From an uncultured Thermoleophilia bacterium (GTDB lineage Bacteria > Actinomycetota > Thermoleophilia > UBA2241), in the NCBI GenBank assembly GCA_903927755.1, contig CAIYOD010000018.1:1-34620 (forward strand): DNA of 34,620 nucleotides. The letters run 5' to 3'. The position numbers were made by a program, and so were the translations under genes. The notes below the pieces were generated by a model. It saw only the letters and a program-made list of their open reading frames with translations. It did not search any database and was not told the DNA's origin. Below, in pieces: positions 2,087-33,622 of the stretch; position 1 is the stretch's first letter, and every line of letters begins with the position of its first letter.

Positions 2087-2401
2087 TCACCTGCCCGCCA
2101 GCACGTGCTGGTCCTCGAACAGGATGTGCTCGCCCAGGTCGCGCAGCGACAGGTTCAGGAAGATCCGGTGCCCGTCGAAGTCCAGCACGCGCATGTCGTC
2201 GCGCCGCTCGAGCTGCTCCGCGATGTCGCGGAAGCTGTAGCCGTAGAGGTCGCGCAGCCTGTCGACGGGGACCTCCCAGGCCAGGAACTTTGCCAGGCCC
2301 TTGGCGCGCAGCTTGGCGATGAGCGCCGTATCGTCGATCGCCGGGTACGAGCTCAGGAGCAGCAGCGGTCCCGAGCCGCTGAGCACGAGGATGCCCTTCA
2401 T
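2087..2401 (-). CDS. Small uncharacterised protein, 104 aa
   Basis: I do not recognise a named family. The protein begins MKGILVLSGSGPLLLLSSY and ends EHILFEDQHVLAGR. It has a short hydrophobic N-terminal stretch that looks like a buried beta strand and glycine turn rather than a signal peptide, then a mixed charged body (LRAKGLAKFLAWEVPVDRL), consistent with a small soluble alpha/beta protein. The ATG at 2401 is preferred over the one at 2407 because GAGGGGG lies about 8 bases upstream of it; the much longer open frame extending upstream to 2797 crosses a repeat and is not protein-like. It lies 41 bp upstream of the oxoprolinase gene on the same strand and may be co-transcribed with it. The function is unknown. 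Confidence 0.7.
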   Translation of the reverse strand: MKGILVLSGSGPLLLLSSYPAIDDTALIAKLRAKGLAKFLAWEVPVDRLRDLYGYSFRDIAEQLERRDDMRVLDFDGHRIFLNLSLRDLGEHILFEDQHVLAGR

Positions 2402-2411
2402 GTCCATCACC

Positions 2412-2463: not shown

Positions 2464-2521
2464 GTCGTCGGAAATGCGTTGCGGCGCCGTCGGGAGGGAC
2501 GCCACCATGTCGCTTCCCGCT

Positions 2522-2674
2522 CAGATCCGTGTGCGGTGCCGTTCGCAGTCCTGTGGTGCCGTCTGCGGCTCTGCGCCGCCGGCAACGGCACCGGCGCGGA
2601 GTCGAGGGTCGTCCCTGGTCCGCGGTGCCATCCGCGACCCTGCGGTGCCGAGCATGGCACCGCCGGCGGTGCTG
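2522..2674 (+). repeat. ~153-bp dispersed intergenic repeat, copy A
   Basis: This copy aligns end to end with the reverse complement of 6599-6750. The left end (about 45 bases, including GCGGTGCCG and CTGTGGTGCCG) and the right end (about 41 bases, starting GCGACCCTGCGGTG) are nearly identical, while the centre has diverged. It contains repeated GGTGCC/GGCACC words. A perfect 7-bp hairpin (2643-2649 with 2656-2662, 6-nt loop) overlaps a perfect 16-bp palindrome at 2657-2672, so two alternative foldings are possible. No transposase is linked. With its flanks it fills the 358-bp gene-free stretch between the 104-aa gene and nth. Confidence 0.85.
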
Positions 2675-2751
2675 GGCCAGAAGCGCATACCTATGCCCCC
2701 GCCGGTCATCGCCGGCGTCGGGATCGTCACCCTGCGGGTACGTCGGCCCGG

Positions 2752-2757
2752 TATACT
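2752..2757 (+). promoter_or_regulatory. -10 element TATACT of nth
   Basis: TATACT matches consensus at five of six positions and lies 8 bases before the GTG start of nth, so transcription would begin at or next to the start codon (leaderless mRNA). No convincing -35 is seen at 17 bp. Confidence 0.5.
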
Positions 2758-2765
2758 CAGTCGCC

Positions 2766-3443
2766 GTGAGCGCACCGTCACCCAGGAAGAGGCTCAAGCA
2801 GGCGACCGACCTCCTCGACGACTTCTACGGTCGCCCCGTGCTCTCGCCGCGCTACCCGCCGGTGGACGAACTCGTCTTCACGGTGCTCTCCCAGAACACC
2901 GCCGACGTGAACACCGAGCGCACCTTCGCGTCGCTCAAGGCGCGCTTCCCGGGGTGGACGGCGGCGCGCGATGCGTCCGCCGAGGAGATCGAGGAGGCCA
3001 TCGCCCTCGGCGGCCTCGCCCACACCAAGGCACCGCGCATCAAGCGCATCCTCGAGGCGATCAGCGCGCGGACCGGTGCGCCCGAGCTGAGCGAGCTCGA
3101 CGACATGACCGACGCGGAGGCGCAGGACTACCTGGTCGCGCTGCCCGGGGTCGGGCCGAAGACGGCCGCGTGCGTGCTGCTCTTCGCACTCGAGCGGCCC
3201 GTCATGCCCGTCGACACGCACGTGCACCGCATCGCGAGGCGGCTCGGCATCATCGGCGAGAAGGTGACCGCCGACCAGGCGCACCCGCTGCTCACGGAGC
3301 TCGCCGGAGCGGACGACGCGGAGCAGGTCTACGCCGTGCACGTGGACTTCGTGCGGCACGGCCGCCGCATCTGCCACGCTCGGCGGCCGGCGTGCGGGGA
3401 GTGCCCGCTGGCGCCGATGTGCCCGTCGGCCGGGCTCGCCTAG
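2766..3443 (+). CDS. nth: Endonuclease III (DNA glycosylase/AP lyase)
   Basis: This 225-residue protein removes oxidised pyrimidines from DNA and cleaves at the resulting abasic site in base excision repair. The helix-hairpin-helix is LPGVGPKTA (residues 126-134), with the catalytic lysine at 132 and the catalytic aspartate at 150 in PVDTHVHR. Four cysteines at 203, 210, 213 and 219 give the C-x6-C-x2-C-x5-C signature of the [4Fe-4S] cluster. Length is normal for the family. The frame is open far upstream, but homology begins only just before residue 10, and the GTG at 2766 follows a TATACT box, so I chose it as the start of a probably leaderless message. The gene stands alone between the two copies of the intergenic repeat's bracketed segment, with the diguanylate cyclase gene downstream. 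Confidence 0.93.
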   Translation: MSAPSPRKRLKQATDLLDDFYGRPVLSPRYPPVDELVFTVLSQNTADVNTERTFASLKARFPGWTAARDASAEEIEEAIALGGLAHTKAPRIKRILEAISARTGAPELSELDDMTDAEAQDYLVALPGVGPKTAACVLLFALERPVMPVDTHVHRIARRLGIIGEKVTADQAHPLLTELAGADDAEQVYAVHVDFVRHGRRICHARRPACGECPLAPMCPSAGLA

Positions 3444-3650
3444 CGGCGCGCGCCCGCTTCCGCGCCCGCCCTTGGACGGCGGCAGGCTCGGCCCGGCGAC
3501 GCGAGACGGCACGCTCGTGGTTGCCGAGCGGGCGCGGGGGGCAGTCTATACACCAAGCGTACGTACTCCCCGTTTGCGCGCGCCGCACATATGGACGCTC
3601 GCTGTAGGCTACGCCGCCGAGGGAGCGGGGAGGACGCAAGGGGGCGACAC

Positions 3651-3728
3651 GTGTGGACTGCTGAGCGTGCTCTGGGCGCCACGCTTCATCTGCCGCTCGC
3701 GGCCATCGGCCGCGGGTTCTCCGCCTGA
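3651..3728 (+). CDS. Possible 25-aa leader peptide overlapping the diguanylate cyclase start
   Basis: A GTG at 3651 follows AGGGGG at a spacing of about 6 bases and opens a 25-codon frame ending ...GRGFSA, with TGA at 3726-3728. That stop overlaps the ATG of the next gene (TGATG). The downstream gene has no Shine-Dalgarno of its own, so translational coupling is plausible. The peptide has no recognisable similarity; the evidence is only RBS, length and overlap. Confidence 0.4.
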   Translation: MWTAERALGATLHLPLAAIGRGFSA

Positions 3729-6586
3729 TGCCCGGCCCGGGAGACTCGCACACAGATCAGGTCACGGCGGGCGGGGCCGCCGAGCCGCACCGGCCGCCCT
3801 CGTCCGGTGAGTTGCGCCGGCAGGCCGAGGAGCGCCTCGGCGGGCTCTCCGCCGCCGGAGCGTTCGCGCCCGAGGACCCGACCGCCGTCGTCCACGAGTT
3901 GCGCGTCCACCAGGTCGAGCTCGAGATGCAGAATGAGGAGCTGCGCCGCGCCCACCTCGAGCTGGAGGCGCAGCGCGCCAAGTACTTCGAGCTCTTCGAC
4001 CTGGCGCCGGTGGGCTATCTCACCCTGAGCGACACGGGCATCGTCGATGAGGCGAACTTCACGGTCGCGCACCTGCTGGGCGTGGATAGGCAACAGCTCG
4101 TCGGGCGGCCGTTCAACGCCTTCATCTTCGCCGGGGACCAGGATGTGTTCTACCGGCACCAGCGGTCGCTCGCGAAGGCCGAGGCGCCGCGGACCTGCGA
4201 GCTGCGCCTGCAGCGCGCCGGCGCCGAGCCCTTCTGGGCGCACCTCGAGTCGCGGCCTCAGGGCGCCGACGACGGCTCCCCGCCGCGCCACCTCCTGACC
4301 GTCACCGATGTCCCCGAGAGAGCCTTGGCGGAGGAGAAGCTGCGCGCCAGCGAGGAGCGCTACCGCGGACTGTTCGAGGGCAATCACGCCGTCATCCTCC
4401 TCATCGATCCGCGGAGTGGAGCCATTGCAGACGCCAATCCTGCCGCCTGCGCCTGGTACGGCTGGAGTCGTGAAGAACTGTTCGCCATGCGCATCGACCA
4501 GATCGACACGCTCTCGCGGTCGGAGATCCGCGAGGAGATGGCGGCGGCGGGCGCGCGAAGGCAGGGCGTCTTCCATGTCAGGCACCGCCGCGCCGACGGC
4601 AAGATCCGCGACGTGGAGGTCTACAGCGGGCCGCTCGAGTCGCAGGGCAAGACGCTGATCTACTCCCTGATCCACGACGTCACCGCGCGCAAGCAGGTGG
4701 AGGCGGCGCTGCGCAGGAGCGAGGAGAAGTACCGCACCATCCTCCAGACGACCATGGACGGCTTCTGGGTGGTGGACGCGGGGGGGCGTTTGCTGGAGGT
4801 CAATGAGGCCTACTGCCGGATGAGCGGCTACAGCATGGAGGAACTCCTTGCCATGACCATCGGCGACGTGTCGGGCGCCGAGACCGCCGCCCAGATCGAC
4901 AAGATCAGCGGACATGGCAAGGGCCGCTTCGAGTCCTGGCATCGGCGTAAGGACGGAACGGTCTTCAACGTCGAGATCAGCGTCCAGCTCCTGCCCGGCG
5001 GCGGAAGGCTCACGGCCTTCGTGCGCGACATCACGTCGCGCAAGCAGGCGGAGTCTTATCGGGAGATGAGTCGCCAGGTCCTGCAGATCCTCAGCGTGCC
5101 GGGCGATCTGCGGGAGTCCATCCATCGCGTCCTGGCGGCGGTGAAGACGAAGACCGGGTTCGACGCCGTGGGCATCCGCCTGCAGAGCGGGGACGACTAC
5201 CCGTACTTCGCTCAGCAGGGCTTCTCGACGGGCTTCGTGCGGACTGAGGACACGCTGGTCGAGCGCGGCGCGGACGGCGGGCTTTGCCGCGACGCGGATG
5301 GCCACGTCAGGCTGGAATGCACCTGCGGCCTGGTCATTACCGGCGGGACCGACCCGGCCAGTCCTGTCTTCACGGCGGGGGGCAGCTTCTGGATCAACGA
5401 CTCCTTCCCGCTGCTCGACCTCCCCGCTGATCAGGACCCCCGGCTGAACCCGCGCAACCGATGCATGCACGACGGCTATGCTTCCATGGCGCTGGTGCCC
5501 ATACGCAGCGGCGGCAGGATCGTCGGCCTGATCCACGTGAACGACCGACGCAAAGGACGCTTCACTCTCGAGACGATCGAGCTCATGGAAGAGCTCGCTG
5601 CGCACATCGGCGCAGCGCTGATGCGCAAGCGCGCCGAGGAGGAGTTGCGCGAGACCCGGGACTACCTCGAGAGCCTCTTCAGCTACGCCAACGCGCCGAT
5701 CATCGTCTGGGACGCGGAGCTGCGTATCACGCGCTTCAACCATGCCTTCGAGGAGCTCACGGGACGGTCTGCCGTCGAGGTCATCGGTGAAAGCCTCGAG
5801 CTCCTCTTTCCCGCGGACGAGCGGCGTGCCAGATCGCTCGAGCTCGTCACCCGGGCGTTGTCCGGCGAGCGCTGGCGGGTGGTCGAGATCCCCATCCTGC
5901 GCACGGACGGCGAGGTGCGCACGGTTCTGTGGAACTCGGCGACCCTGTACGCCGACGACGGCACGACGCCGGTGGCCACGATCGCCCAGGGCCAGGACAT
6001 CAGCGAGCGCAAGCAGGCGGAGGAAGAGCTGGCCAGCCTGAACCAGGAACTGGAGCGCGAGACCGTGGCCCTGGCGAAGGCCAACGCCACCATTGCGCTG
6101 ATCGCCGCCACGGACGAACTCACCGGCCTCGCCAGTCGGCATCACTTCTCTGAGGCCCTCGAGAAAGCGGTCTCGCTGGCGCGCCGGCACGGCAGCCCTC
6201 TGGCGCTCGTGAGCCTCGATCTTGACGGCCTCAAGCAGGTCAACGACACCTTGGGTCACGAGGTCGGCGACGAGGTGCTGGCGAGCTTCGCCGCACTCCT
6301 CGCCGCTCTGTGCCGCGCCGAGGACCTGCCGGGCCGGCTCGGCGGCGACGAGTTCAGCTTGCTGCTGCCGGGCATCGACCTGGGCGGCGCGTGCTCGGTT
6401 GCTGAGAGGGTGCTGGCTGCGGTGCGCTCCTGCGAGACGCTTGCGCAGCAAGGCGTCACGGTCAGCGCCGGAGTCGTCGCCCGGTCGCCCGACGAGCTCC
6501 CCGTCGACCTGCTGCGCCGCGCCGACGAGGCGCTGTACGCGGCCAAGCGCAGCGGCGGCGACGCCGCGGCAGCGGCGACAGGGTAG
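3728..6586 (+). CDS. Multi-PAS/GAF diguanylate cyclase (GGDEF), 952 aa
   Basis: Predicted cytoplasmic sensor that makes cyclic di-GMP from two GTP. No membrane segment is seen. Order: N-terminal helix with HELRVHQVELEMQNEELRR (residues 56-74), a linker common before PAS domains; PAS at about 85-200, 210-325 and 335-445; GAF at about 455-635; a fourth PAS at about 645-765; a short coiled coil; GGDEF domain at about 790-945. The active-site loop GGDEF is intact at 872-876, metal-binding aspartates lie in LDLDGLKQVND (about 831/833), and R863-x-x-D866, five residues before GGDEF, forms an inhibitory I-site, so product feedback is expected. The GAF domain carries cysteines at 520, 531, 533 and 579 that might bind a cofactor or sense redox. 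There is no EAL domain. Start at 3728 overlaps the stop of the leader ORF. Confidence 0.93.
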   Translation: MPGPGDSHTDQVTAGGAAEPHRPPSSGELRRQAEERLGGLSAAGAFAPEDPTAVVHELRVHQVELEMQNEELRRAHLELEAQRAKYFELFDLAPVGYLTLSDTGIVDEANFTVAHLLGVDRQQLVGRPFNAFIFAGDQDVFYRHQRSLAKAEAPRTCELRLQRAGAEPFWAHLESRPQGADDGSPPRHLLTVTDVPERALAEEKLRASEERYRGLFEGNHAVILLIDPRSGAIADANPAACAWYGWSREELFAMRIDQIDTLSRSEIREEMAAAGARRQGVFHVRHRRADGKIRDVEVYSGPLESQGKTLIYSLIHDVTARKQVEAALRRSEEKYRTILQTTMDGFWVVDAGGRLLEVNEAYCRMSGYSMEELLAMTIGDVSGAETAAQIDKISGHGKGRFESWHRRKDGTVFNVEISVQLLPGGGRLTAFVRDITSRKQAESYREMSRQVLQILSVPGDLRESIHRVLAAVKTKTGFDAVGIRLQSGDDYPYFAQQGFSTGFVRTEDTLVERGADGGLCRDADGHVRLECTCGLVITGGTDPASPVFTAGGSFWINDSFPLLDLPADQDPRLNPRNRCMHDGYASMALVPIRSGGRIVGLIHVNDRRKGRFTLETIELMEELAAHIGAALMRKRAEEELRETRDYLESLFSYANAPIIVWDAELRITRFNHAFEELTGRSAVEVIGESLELLFPADERRARSLELVTRALSGERWRVVEIPILRTDGEVRTVLWNSATLYADDGTTPVATIAQGQDISERKQAEEELASLNQELERETVALAKANATIALIAATDELTGLASRHHFSEALEKAVSLARRHGSPLALVSLDLDGLKQVNDTLGHEVGDEVLASFAALLAALCRAEDLPGRLGGDEFSLLLPGIDLGGACSVAERVLAAVRSCETLAQQGVTVSAGVVARSPDELPVDLLRRADEALYAAKRSGGDAAAAATG

Positions 6587-6598
6587 TACGTTTCCATG

Positions 6599-6750
6599 CA
6601 GCACCGCCGGCGGTGCCGTGCTCGACACCGCAGGGTCGCAGCCGGCACCGGCGCCGACGGCGGCAACGCCACTCGACCTCGGCACGCGGTCTGCAGCGCG
6701 GAACGGCAGGCGGCACCACAGATCTGCGAGCGGCACCGCGTGCGGCTCTG
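6599..6750 (-). repeat. ~153-bp dispersed intergenic repeat, copy B (inverted relative to copy A)
   Basis: Read on the minus strand from 6750 to 6599, this 152-bp stretch aligns with copy A over its whole length, about 85 percent identical at the left end and 39 of 41 at the right end, with a diverged middle. The hairpin is kept (6611-6617 with 6624-6630), with one C-to-T change that still allows a wobble pair on the minus-strand RNA, and the 16-bp palindrome at 6601-6616 is identical to that in copy A. It occupies most of the 267-bp gap between the convergent diguanylate cyclase and P-type ATPase genes. Confidence 0.85.
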
Positions 6751-6782
6751 AGTGCCAAACGACTATGGCCTATGGCGGTCCG

Positions 6783-6807
6783 TCCGCGGTCTGCCTCCGC
6801 GGTCTGC
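6783..6807. repeat. Two direct copies of a 12-bp word
   Basis: TCCGCGGTCTGC occurs at 6783-6794 and again at 6796-6807, separated by one base. Part of the word recurs inside repeat copy B. It lies between copy B and the end of the ATPase gene; no function is evident. Confidence 0.6.
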
Positions 6808-14077: not shown

Positions 14078-15235
14078 ATGAGACTGCACACCGTCGCCTT
14101 CAGCAATCTGCGGCGCCGCAAGTCACGGGCGGCGTTCCTGGTCGCCGGGCTGCTCGTCGGGGTCGGCACCGTGGTCGCGCTGCTCACGCTCAGCCAGGCG
14201 CTGACCGTGCAGGCACAGAACAACCTGGAGACGTACGGCGCCAACATCATCGTCGCGCCGCGGACGGACGGGCTCTCGCTGACCTACGGCGGGGTGACTG
14301 TGGCCGGCGTCTCTGTCGGCGCGGAGGACATCCGGCAGTCCGACCTGGCGCGCATCGCGACGATCGCCAACCGCAGGAACATCGCCACCATCGCCCCTGA
14401 GCTCCTCGGCGCCGTCAGCGTCGGGGGTCGGCCGGGTCTGCTGATGGGCGTGCAGCCCGAGAACGAGTTCGACCTCAAGAAGTGGTGGAGCGTGGACGGG
14501 CGGCCGCCGCGGAACGGCCCCGAGCTCGTGGCCGGCTCGGCGGCCGCCGCCGCCCTCAAGCTTCGCACGGGCGCCACCGTCAGCGTGGACGGCCGGCCGT
14601 TCACCGTCACCGGCATCCTGCGTCCGACCGGCTCACAGGACGACGACCTGCTGATCACCGAGCTCGCCACCGCGCAGGGCGTGCTCGACAAGCCGGGCAG
14701 GGTCTCGATGATCCAGATCGCCGCCCTCTGCAGCGACTGCCCGGTGGAGAAGATCGTCGCCCAGCTCGGCGGCGTGCTGCCCGGCACCAGGGTCACCGCC
14801 ATGCAGGACAAGGTCAAGAACCGCATGCACGCCATCGACCAGTTCCGCGCTTTCAGCTGGCTCGTGGCCGGCGTGATCATCGGCATCGAGGCGCTGGTCG
14901 TGTTCGTCACCATGATGGGCTCGGTCAACGAGCGGACGCGTGAGATCGGCATCTTCCGCGCGCTCGGCTTCCGGCGGCTGCACGTGACCGGCCTGATCCT
15001 CATCGAGGCGGCCGTCGCGAGTCTGCTCGCCGGCGCGCTCGGCTACCTCGCCGGCATGGGCGTCAGCTACGCCCTGCTGCCGCTGCTGGCCGGCGACGGC
15101 GTGTCGGTGACGTGGGCGCCGGCGCTCGCCCTCGGGGCCGTCGGCCTCGCCGTCCTCGTCGGCGCCGTCGCCTCGCTCTACCCGGCGCTCCGCGCCAGCC
15201 GCATGGACCCGACCGTCGCCCTGCGGGCGCTCTGA
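14078..15235 (+). CDS. FtsX/MacB-type ABC transporter permease 1
   Basis: A 385-residue permease with the MacB topology: a membrane helix at about 19-40, a large extracytoplasmic domain at about 45-258, then three helices at about 262-285, 305-335 and 348-372. The cytoplasmic loop GSVNERTREIGIFRALGFRR is the coupling region of FtsX-family proteins, and SLYPALRASRMDPTVALRAL is the usual C-terminus. The periplasmic part carries C218-x2-C221 (ALCSDCP), absent from the next gene's product. It is 29 bp after the DUF2318 gene and 7 bp before its paralogue. Together with the ATPase it forms a mechanotransmission-type ABC system rather than a classic importer; substrate unknown, iron handling likely by context. 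Confidence 0.9.
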   Translation: MRLHTVAFSNLRRRKSRAAFLVAGLLVGVGTVVALLTLSQALTVQAQNNLETYGANIIVAPRTDGLSLTYGGVTVAGVSVGAEDIRQSDLARIATIANRRNIATIAPELLGAVSVGGRPGLLMGVQPENEFDLKKWWSVDGRPPRNGPELVAGSAAAAALKLRTGATVSVDGRPFTVTGILRPTGSQDDDLLITELATAQGVLDKPGRVSMIQIAALCSDCPVEKIVAQLGGVLPGTRVTAMQDKVKNRMHAIDQFRAFSWLVAGVIIGIEALVVFVTMMGSVNERTREIGIFRALGFRRLHVTGLILIEAAVASLLAGALGYLAGMGVSYALLPLLAGDGVSVTWAPALALGAVGLAVLVGAVASLYPALRASRMDPTVALRAL

Positions 15236-15242
15236 GGCCCCG

Positions 15243-16400
15243 ATGACGCTGCTCACCGTCGCGCTGAACAACCTGCGCCGCCGCAAGGGCCGCGCCGCGT
15301 TCCTGGTCGCCGGCCTCCTCATCGGCGTCGGGACTGTGGTCGCGCTCCTCTCGGTCACCCAGTCCATGACCGCGGAGACCAAGACCAACCTCGAGAGCTT
15401 CGGCGCCAACATCGTCGTCACGCCGCGCACCAAGGACGTGACCCTCAGCTACGGCGGCATCACTGCCGGCGGGGTCTCGGTGGGACGGCAGTCGCTGTCC
15501 CAGGCCGACGTCGCCAGCATCGGCTCCATCCCGAGCCGCGCCGACATCTCGGCGGTCGCGCCGCAGCTGGTCGGCGCCGTGCAGGTCAAGGGCCGGCGCG
15601 TCTTGCTGCTCGGCGTGCGGCCGGAGCAGCAGTTCAAGCTCAAGCGCTGGTGGTCGGTCGGGTCCGGGCATGCGCCGGCCAACGACCACGAGCTCATCGC
15701 CGGCTCGGCCGCGGCGCGGACGCTCGGCCTCGCCATGGGCGACTACGTGCGTCTCGGCGGGCGCCGGTTCACGGTGACCGGCGTCCTGGGCGAGACGGGC
15801 TCCCAGGACGACAGCCTGCTCATCGTCGACCTCGGCGCCGCCCAGCAGGTCCTGCGCCGGCCGGGCCAGGTGACGCTGGTCGAGATCGCGGCGCTCTACG
15901 CCGGCGCGCCCGTGGACAGGATCGCCGCCGAGATCGGCGCCGCGCTGCCCCAGGCCGAGGTCACGGCGATGCAGGAGGCGGTCAAGAGCCGTCAGCACGC
16001 CGTCGATCAGTTCCGCCGCTTCAGCTACGCGATCGTCGGGGTGGTCATCGCCATCGAAGCGCTCGTGGTGTTCCTCACCGTGATGGGTTCGGTCAGCGAG
16101 CGCACGCGCGAGATCGGCGTGTTCCGCGCCATCGGGTTCCGCCGGGTCCACATCACGCGACTGATCCTCATCGAGGCGGTGCTCGCCAGCGCCGTCGCCG
16201 GCGTGCTCGGCTACGCGGCGGGCATGGCGGTCACGTACGCGGCGCTGCCGCTGATCGCCCAGGGCGCCGAGGTGGCGTGGGCGCCTTTGCTCGGCCTCGT
16301 CGCCGTCATCCTGGCCGTCGCCATCGGCGGCCTGGCATCACTGTATCCGGCGCTGCGCGCCGGCAAGATGGATCCCACCGAGGCGCTCCGCGCGCTGTGA
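15243..16400 (+). CDS. FtsX/MacB-type ABC transporter permease 2 (tandem paralogue)
   Basis: Also 385 residues and alignable throughout with the preceding permease (both share NNLRRRKxRAAFLVAGLL-type N-termini, WWSV in the extracytoplasmic domain, GSVSERTREIGVFRAIGFRR and the SLYPALRA...MDPTEALRAL end). The same four membrane helices are seen. It differs in lacking the CxxC: the equivalent site reads ALYAGAP. The two probably arose by tandem duplication and form a heterodimer, as in the Campylobacter Cj1661/Cj1662 pair. It is followed after 29 bp by the ATPase gene. Confidence 0.9.
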   Translation: MTLLTVALNNLRRRKGRAAFLVAGLLIGVGTVVALLSVTQSMTAETKTNLESFGANIVVTPRTKDVTLSYGGITAGGVSVGRQSLSQADVASIGSIPSRADISAVAPQLVGAVQVKGRRVLLLGVRPEQQFKLKRWWSVGSGHAPANDHELIAGSAAARTLGLAMGDYVRLGGRRFTVTGVLGETGSQDDSLLIVDLGAAQQVLRRPGQVTLVEIAALYAGAPVDRIAAEIGAALPQAEVTAMQEAVKSRQHAVDQFRRFSYAIVGVVIAIEALVVFLTVMGSVSERTREIGVFRAIGFRRVHITRLILIEAVLASAVAGVLGYAAGMAVTYAALPLIAQGAEVAWAPLLGLVAVILAVAIGGLASLYPALRAGKMDPTEALRAL

Positions 16401-33538: not shown

Positions 33539-33622
33539 GGCGCCACCAATGATGCCACCCATGACGCCACCCATGACGCCACCCATGACGCCACCCATGA
33601 CGCCACCGGTGATGCCACTCGC
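33539..33622. repeat. 12-bp tandem repeat, seven units
   Basis: The unit GACGCCACCCAT is repeated head to tail. Units at 33563-33574, 33575-33586 and 33587-33598 are identical; the one at 33551-33562 has one change; flanking units at 33539-33550, 33599-33610 and 33611-33622 have diverged. There are no spacers, so it is a minisatellite, not a CRISPR array. Homogeneity in the centre suggests recent slippage or unequal exchange. Confidence 0.9.

Follow-up and report, generated by a model that had tools for sequence, protein, structure and literature searches.

Two of ten copies of a dispersed, MITE-like repeat family flank nth and a diguanylate cyclase gene in a Thermoleophilia genome

The nth locus and its two inverted repeats

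The window, a stretch of 34,620 nucleotides, is contig 18 of a Thermoleophilia MAG (3.54 Mb in 188 contigs, ~87% complete) whose close relatives, judged by the neighboring P-type ATPase, are Thermoleophilia/Actinobacteria MAGs. Two copies of a repeat lie in opposite orientation around nth (endonuclease III; 2766–3443, plus strand; Pfam HhH-GPD and EndIII_4Fe-2S) and a PAS/GAF/GGDEF diguanylate cyclase gene (3728–6586, plus strand; Pfam PAS, GAF and GGDEF), both of which are outside the element itself. Copy A (2507–2688, plus strand) occupies the divergent intergenic region between a 107-aa ORF (2087–2410, minus strand) and nth, and copy B (6585–6764, minus strand) lies between the convergent GGDEF and P-type ATPase genes, its outer end overlapping the TAG stop of the GGDEF gene (6584–6586). 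These extents were obtained with R1, a sequence-only model of three copies (A, B and one on contig 91), at E = 2.9 × 10−41 for A and 1.6 × 10−39 for B, both copies being in the training of the model. BLAST of A (2500–2690) against the whole genome returned B at 75% identity (E = 6.7 × 10−23), and a repeat search of the window recovered two inverted-arm pairs, 2623–2674/6599–6650 (52 nt, 90% complementary) and 2509–2579/6693–6763 (71 nt, 77%). The initial annotation had described these repeats as an inverted pair with similar ends and a diverged middle, and this description holds, the center being more variable than the subterminal blocks. The ~153-bp stretches that it had marked (2522–2674 and 6750–6599) form a strong core, and alignment of the three copies showed that homology runs ~15 bp further outward on both sides.

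Within each copy the two ends are themselves inverted relative to each other. With R2, an ends-only model trained on the copies of this family, the 5′ arm of copy A was placed at 2508–2549 (plus strand; E = 8.5 × 10−8, this arm being in the training set) and its 3′ arm at 2647–2685 (minus strand; E = 2.7 × 10−7); in copy B the 5′ arm lies at 6723–6764 (minus strand; E = 8.5 × 10−7) and the 3′ arm at 6585–6625 (plus strand; E = 1.9 × 10−8). The 3′ arms of both copies contain the palindrome GCACCGCCGGCGGTGC. When the arms of a copy were aligned with each other, 31 of 49 positions were identical in A (1 of 1,000 shuffles as good) and 35 of 51 in B (0 of 1,000). A coding reading of the element was rejected by eye: A and the copy on contig 91 share an apparent ATG frame over their first ~20 codons, A frameshifts midway and B is without a start. 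Just beyond copy B, at 6783–6807, the 13-bp unit TCCGCGGTCTGCC is present in 1.9 tandem copies.

Ten intergenic copies in one genome

The initial annotation had proposed a BLASTN search of the genome for further copies, and such copies exist: BLAST of A yielded a third full copy on contig 91 (C91; 75% identity, E = 1.7 × 10−23), and profile models brought the number to ten. R1 detected full-length copies on contigs 28, 42 and 73 (C28, C42 and C73; E = 1 × 10−16 to 1 × 10−19), none of which it contained, together with weaker copies on contigs 59, 134 and 163; a model of nine copies then identified the tenth on contig 166 (C166; E = 1.3 × 10−10), again a copy absent from the training sequences. 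The family therefore comprises 10 full-length copies of ~165 to 182 bp in one genome, the multiple short noncoding copies expected of a miniature inverted-repeat element (MITE). All of them are intergenic, 0 of 10 overlapping a predicted gene. Of the weaker model matches that were inspected, both here and in congeners, nearly all fell wholly inside predicted genes and are thus chance matches in GC-rich coding DNA; matches of R1 in congeners were all coding and were rejected as family members, and a BLAST match at C42:3087 was discarded as a copy, its alignment showing no real similarity. The exceptions among the weak matches were a minus-strand match on the C163 copy itself and C73:25181–25244 (E = 0.0135, full-length model R3), a possible solo family end in an intergenic gap. 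No family ends were found in 298 other Thermoleophilia genomes under strict filters; this absence outside the genome is based on the ends-only R2, trained on these copies, over 299 genomes including its own, together with R1 in the genus. Plasmids, phages and viral contigs gave no family match.

The copies are GC rich (~72%) and strongly diverged, with pairwise identities of 48 to 73% among seven copies compared (27 to 52% divergence). Across all ten, mean pairwise identity was 0.39 to 0.45 in the center versus 0.67 to 0.71 in the best subterminal blocks; in the outermost 5′ part it was 0.46, the outer ~15 bp being less conserved than the subterminal blocks. Most copies nonetheless keep a length near 180 bp despite this divergence. 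A whole-genome search with R2 located both arms where expected in seven copies. In five of the seven, namely A, B, C28, C42 and C163, the ~45-bp imperfect arms beat shuffles, as would be expected of the terminal inverted repeats of a MITE; the arms of C91 and C73 were no better than shuffles. Within a copy, the two ends showed no significant coordinated variation when 48 bp were compared (P = 0.35) and a weak one over the outermost 19 bp (P = 0.03). With the nine-copy model, several copies gave near-full-length matches in both orientations; the element is therefore quasi-palindromic overall (dyad symmetry). The signal for an internal 20-bp tandem periodicity was only modest (z = 3.4 at lag 20, z = 7.0 at lag 12), these scores being inflated by shared ancestry, and such a periodicity is not put forward. 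On contig 73, from about position 1663 on, a near-exact 38-bp tandem duplication doubles the 3′ terminus of the copy. The tree of the copies is star-like, with only the grouping of C134 with C166 supported, the shape that a burst and subsequent decay would give. A literature search found no study of such short dispersed repeats in Thermoleophilia, and the family adds an undescribed one for this class.

Empty sites in relatives and the segment between the copies

The neighborhood is kept to varying extents in relatives, where sites A and B occur without the element. In one of them (L105), the genes for hydantoinase, the 107-aa ORF, nth, GGDEF protein and ATPase match those of the window in relative order and orientation, and neither copy is present. 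The gap between the GGDEF and ATPase genes at site B is 32 bp in L105 versus 267 bp here, and that between the 107-aa ORF and nth at site A is about 110 bp versus 355 bp. Both sites are therefore empty in relatives, as they would be for a MITE, with flanks too diverged to give exact junctions. The element-free relatives fit A and B having been gained as insertions, the alternative being losses in all of the relatives.

The inverted orientation of A and B had also led to the suggestion that they bracket an invertible segment (2675–6598), and on this point the evidence is unfavorable. The identical gene order and orientation in L105, which carries neither copy, argues against inversion of the segment. 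The copy nearest to B is C28 (0.73) rather than A (0.69), and neither these values nor the star-like tree clearly makes A and B nearest to one another, so that they are not demonstrably a pair. Repeats at ~69 to 75% identity are, moreover, poor substrates for homologous recombination. Their inverted orientation speaks for A and B as a functional pair that would delimit a composite or invertible unit with nth and the GGDEF gene inside. Against this, the segment contains no recombinase gene, the other eight copies lie elsewhere, and by our own estimate the chance that any two of ten copies (45 pairs) fall within ~4.1 kb in 3.54 Mb is about 0.1. We regard a functional pair as very improbable indeed, and the placement of the two copies around these genes is most simply a coincidence. 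An arrangement that seems to frame genes with inverted repeats can come from two copies of a family dispersed through the genome.

Origin and possible function of the family

We consider it reasonably probable (roughly 60%) that A and B represent, in decayed form, an old, lineage-restricted, MITE-like family of ~180 bp that spread by transposition in trans and then decayed independently. One or a few master sequences, each a short noncoding quasi-palindrome with ~45-bp imperfect inverted arms, would have spread to at least 10 intergenic sites of the lineage, most likely by transposition in trans in the manner of MITEs; the arms would have been putative binding and cleavage sites of the transposase, each copy would have decayed independently after the spread, and the mobilizing transposase would now be lost or unsampled. 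The family resembles bacterial MITEs (nonautonomous IS derivatives) in being short, noncoding, dispersed between genes, bounded by inverted arms and missing at orthologous sites in relatives. It differs from them in its high divergence, in a conservation that drops from the subterminal blocks to the outer ends, and in that neither a parent IS or transposase nor a target-site duplication was found. The low conservation of the outer ~15 bp is unlike a sharp transposon end and counts against a mobile origin.

A mobilizer was sought in several ways. No target-site duplication was detected at any copy, the longest flanking repeats being no better than those at random positions (the copies are old and their boundaries uncertain by several bases). 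R2 detected no solitary arm anywhere in the genome at E < 0.01, so the assembly holds no longer element with recognizable ends of the same kind. The single DDE_Tnp_1 gene of the genome (contig 81) was rejected as a parent, with no significant arm at its flanks, and Y1_Tnp (RAYT; PF01797) had no match in this 87%-complete genome, control genomes being positive. A cognate transposase or parent was accordingly found neither among the Y1_Tnp and DDE_Tnp_1 families of the genome nor through arms in the 298 other genomes of the class. The earlier proposal of a nonautonomous mobile, REP- or MITE-like element is thus upheld as far as ten dispersed intergenic copies and sites empty in relatives are concerned; the matching transposase and target-site duplications that it proposed to look for were not found. 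Since these two defining tests of a MITE failed, we call the family MITE-like, not MITE. Tn3-derived miniature elements (TIMEs), of similar size and with ~40-bp inverted ends, offer a lead; the Tn3 terminus is of GGGG type, and the family ends do not begin so.

Membership among REP/BIME repeats, paired inverted palindromes mobilized by RAYT (REP-associated tyrosine transposase), would account for inverted arm pairs with local palindromes at extragenic sites near gene 3′ ends. An end overlapping a TAG stop, as in copy B, has been described for GTAG REPs, which belong with the GTAG- and CGTC-tagged palindromes (PMC3733652). The assignment fails, however, on unit size (~180 bp versus 20 to 40 bp), on the tag (GTAG stands only at the ends of B and C73 and is not common to the copies) and on the RAYT gene, none having been found in the 87%-complete genome; the family also has about ten copies, versus the more than 100 usual for REPs (PMC2817692). 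A REP/BIME-type origin is therefore unlikely.

The main rival to the MITE-like reading is a palindromic 3′-region element kept by its function, whatever its origin, which could be a bidirectional terminator, an mRNA 3′-end protector or a protein-binding site. By simple gene calls, convergent genes flank six of the ten copies, divergent genes two and codirectional genes two. Eight of the ten copies thus adjoin a gene 3′ end on one side or both; in the window, by comparison, about 4 of 28 boundaries are convergent. The near-constant length of ~180 bp at 27 to 52% divergence could likewise reflect selection. On the element strand, folding exceeded that of shuffles in A (z = −4.9), C42 (−3.7), C28 (−3.0), C163 (−2.6) and, less clearly, B (−1.9), and not at all in C91 or C73. 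Hairpin potential of the alignment exceeded that of column shuffles on both strands (reached by 0 of 100 and 1 of 100), and the covariation score on the consensus fold was reached by 1 of 500 shuffles; this fold, however, was derived from the same alignment, the RNAalifold covariation term was unfavorable, and no covariation was seen when the other copies were given the fold obtained for copy A. As the fold signal is strand-symmetric, palindromy of inverted-repeat DNA explains it equally well. Visual inspection showed no T-run terminator, a known RNA family was rejected for want of any Rfam match, and the same gene ends in relatives manage without the element. We consider such a selected element possible, at rather low probability. 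If the bias toward convergent genes does reflect selection, the copies become candidate 3′-end control elements; a bolder version, in which a lineage-specific quasi-palindrome with an almost invariant length of ~180 bp, selected at convergent gene ends, would be a new bidirectional 3′-end or chromosome-organizing site in Thermoleophilia, seems to us improbable.

Elsewhere in the window, two adjacent same-strand genes (14078–15235 and 15243–16400), both encoding 385 aa and with DNA stretches 69 to 75% identical, represent an apparent tandem duplication, and 6.5 copies of the 12-bp unit CGCCACCCATGA (90% matches) occupy 33541–33618.
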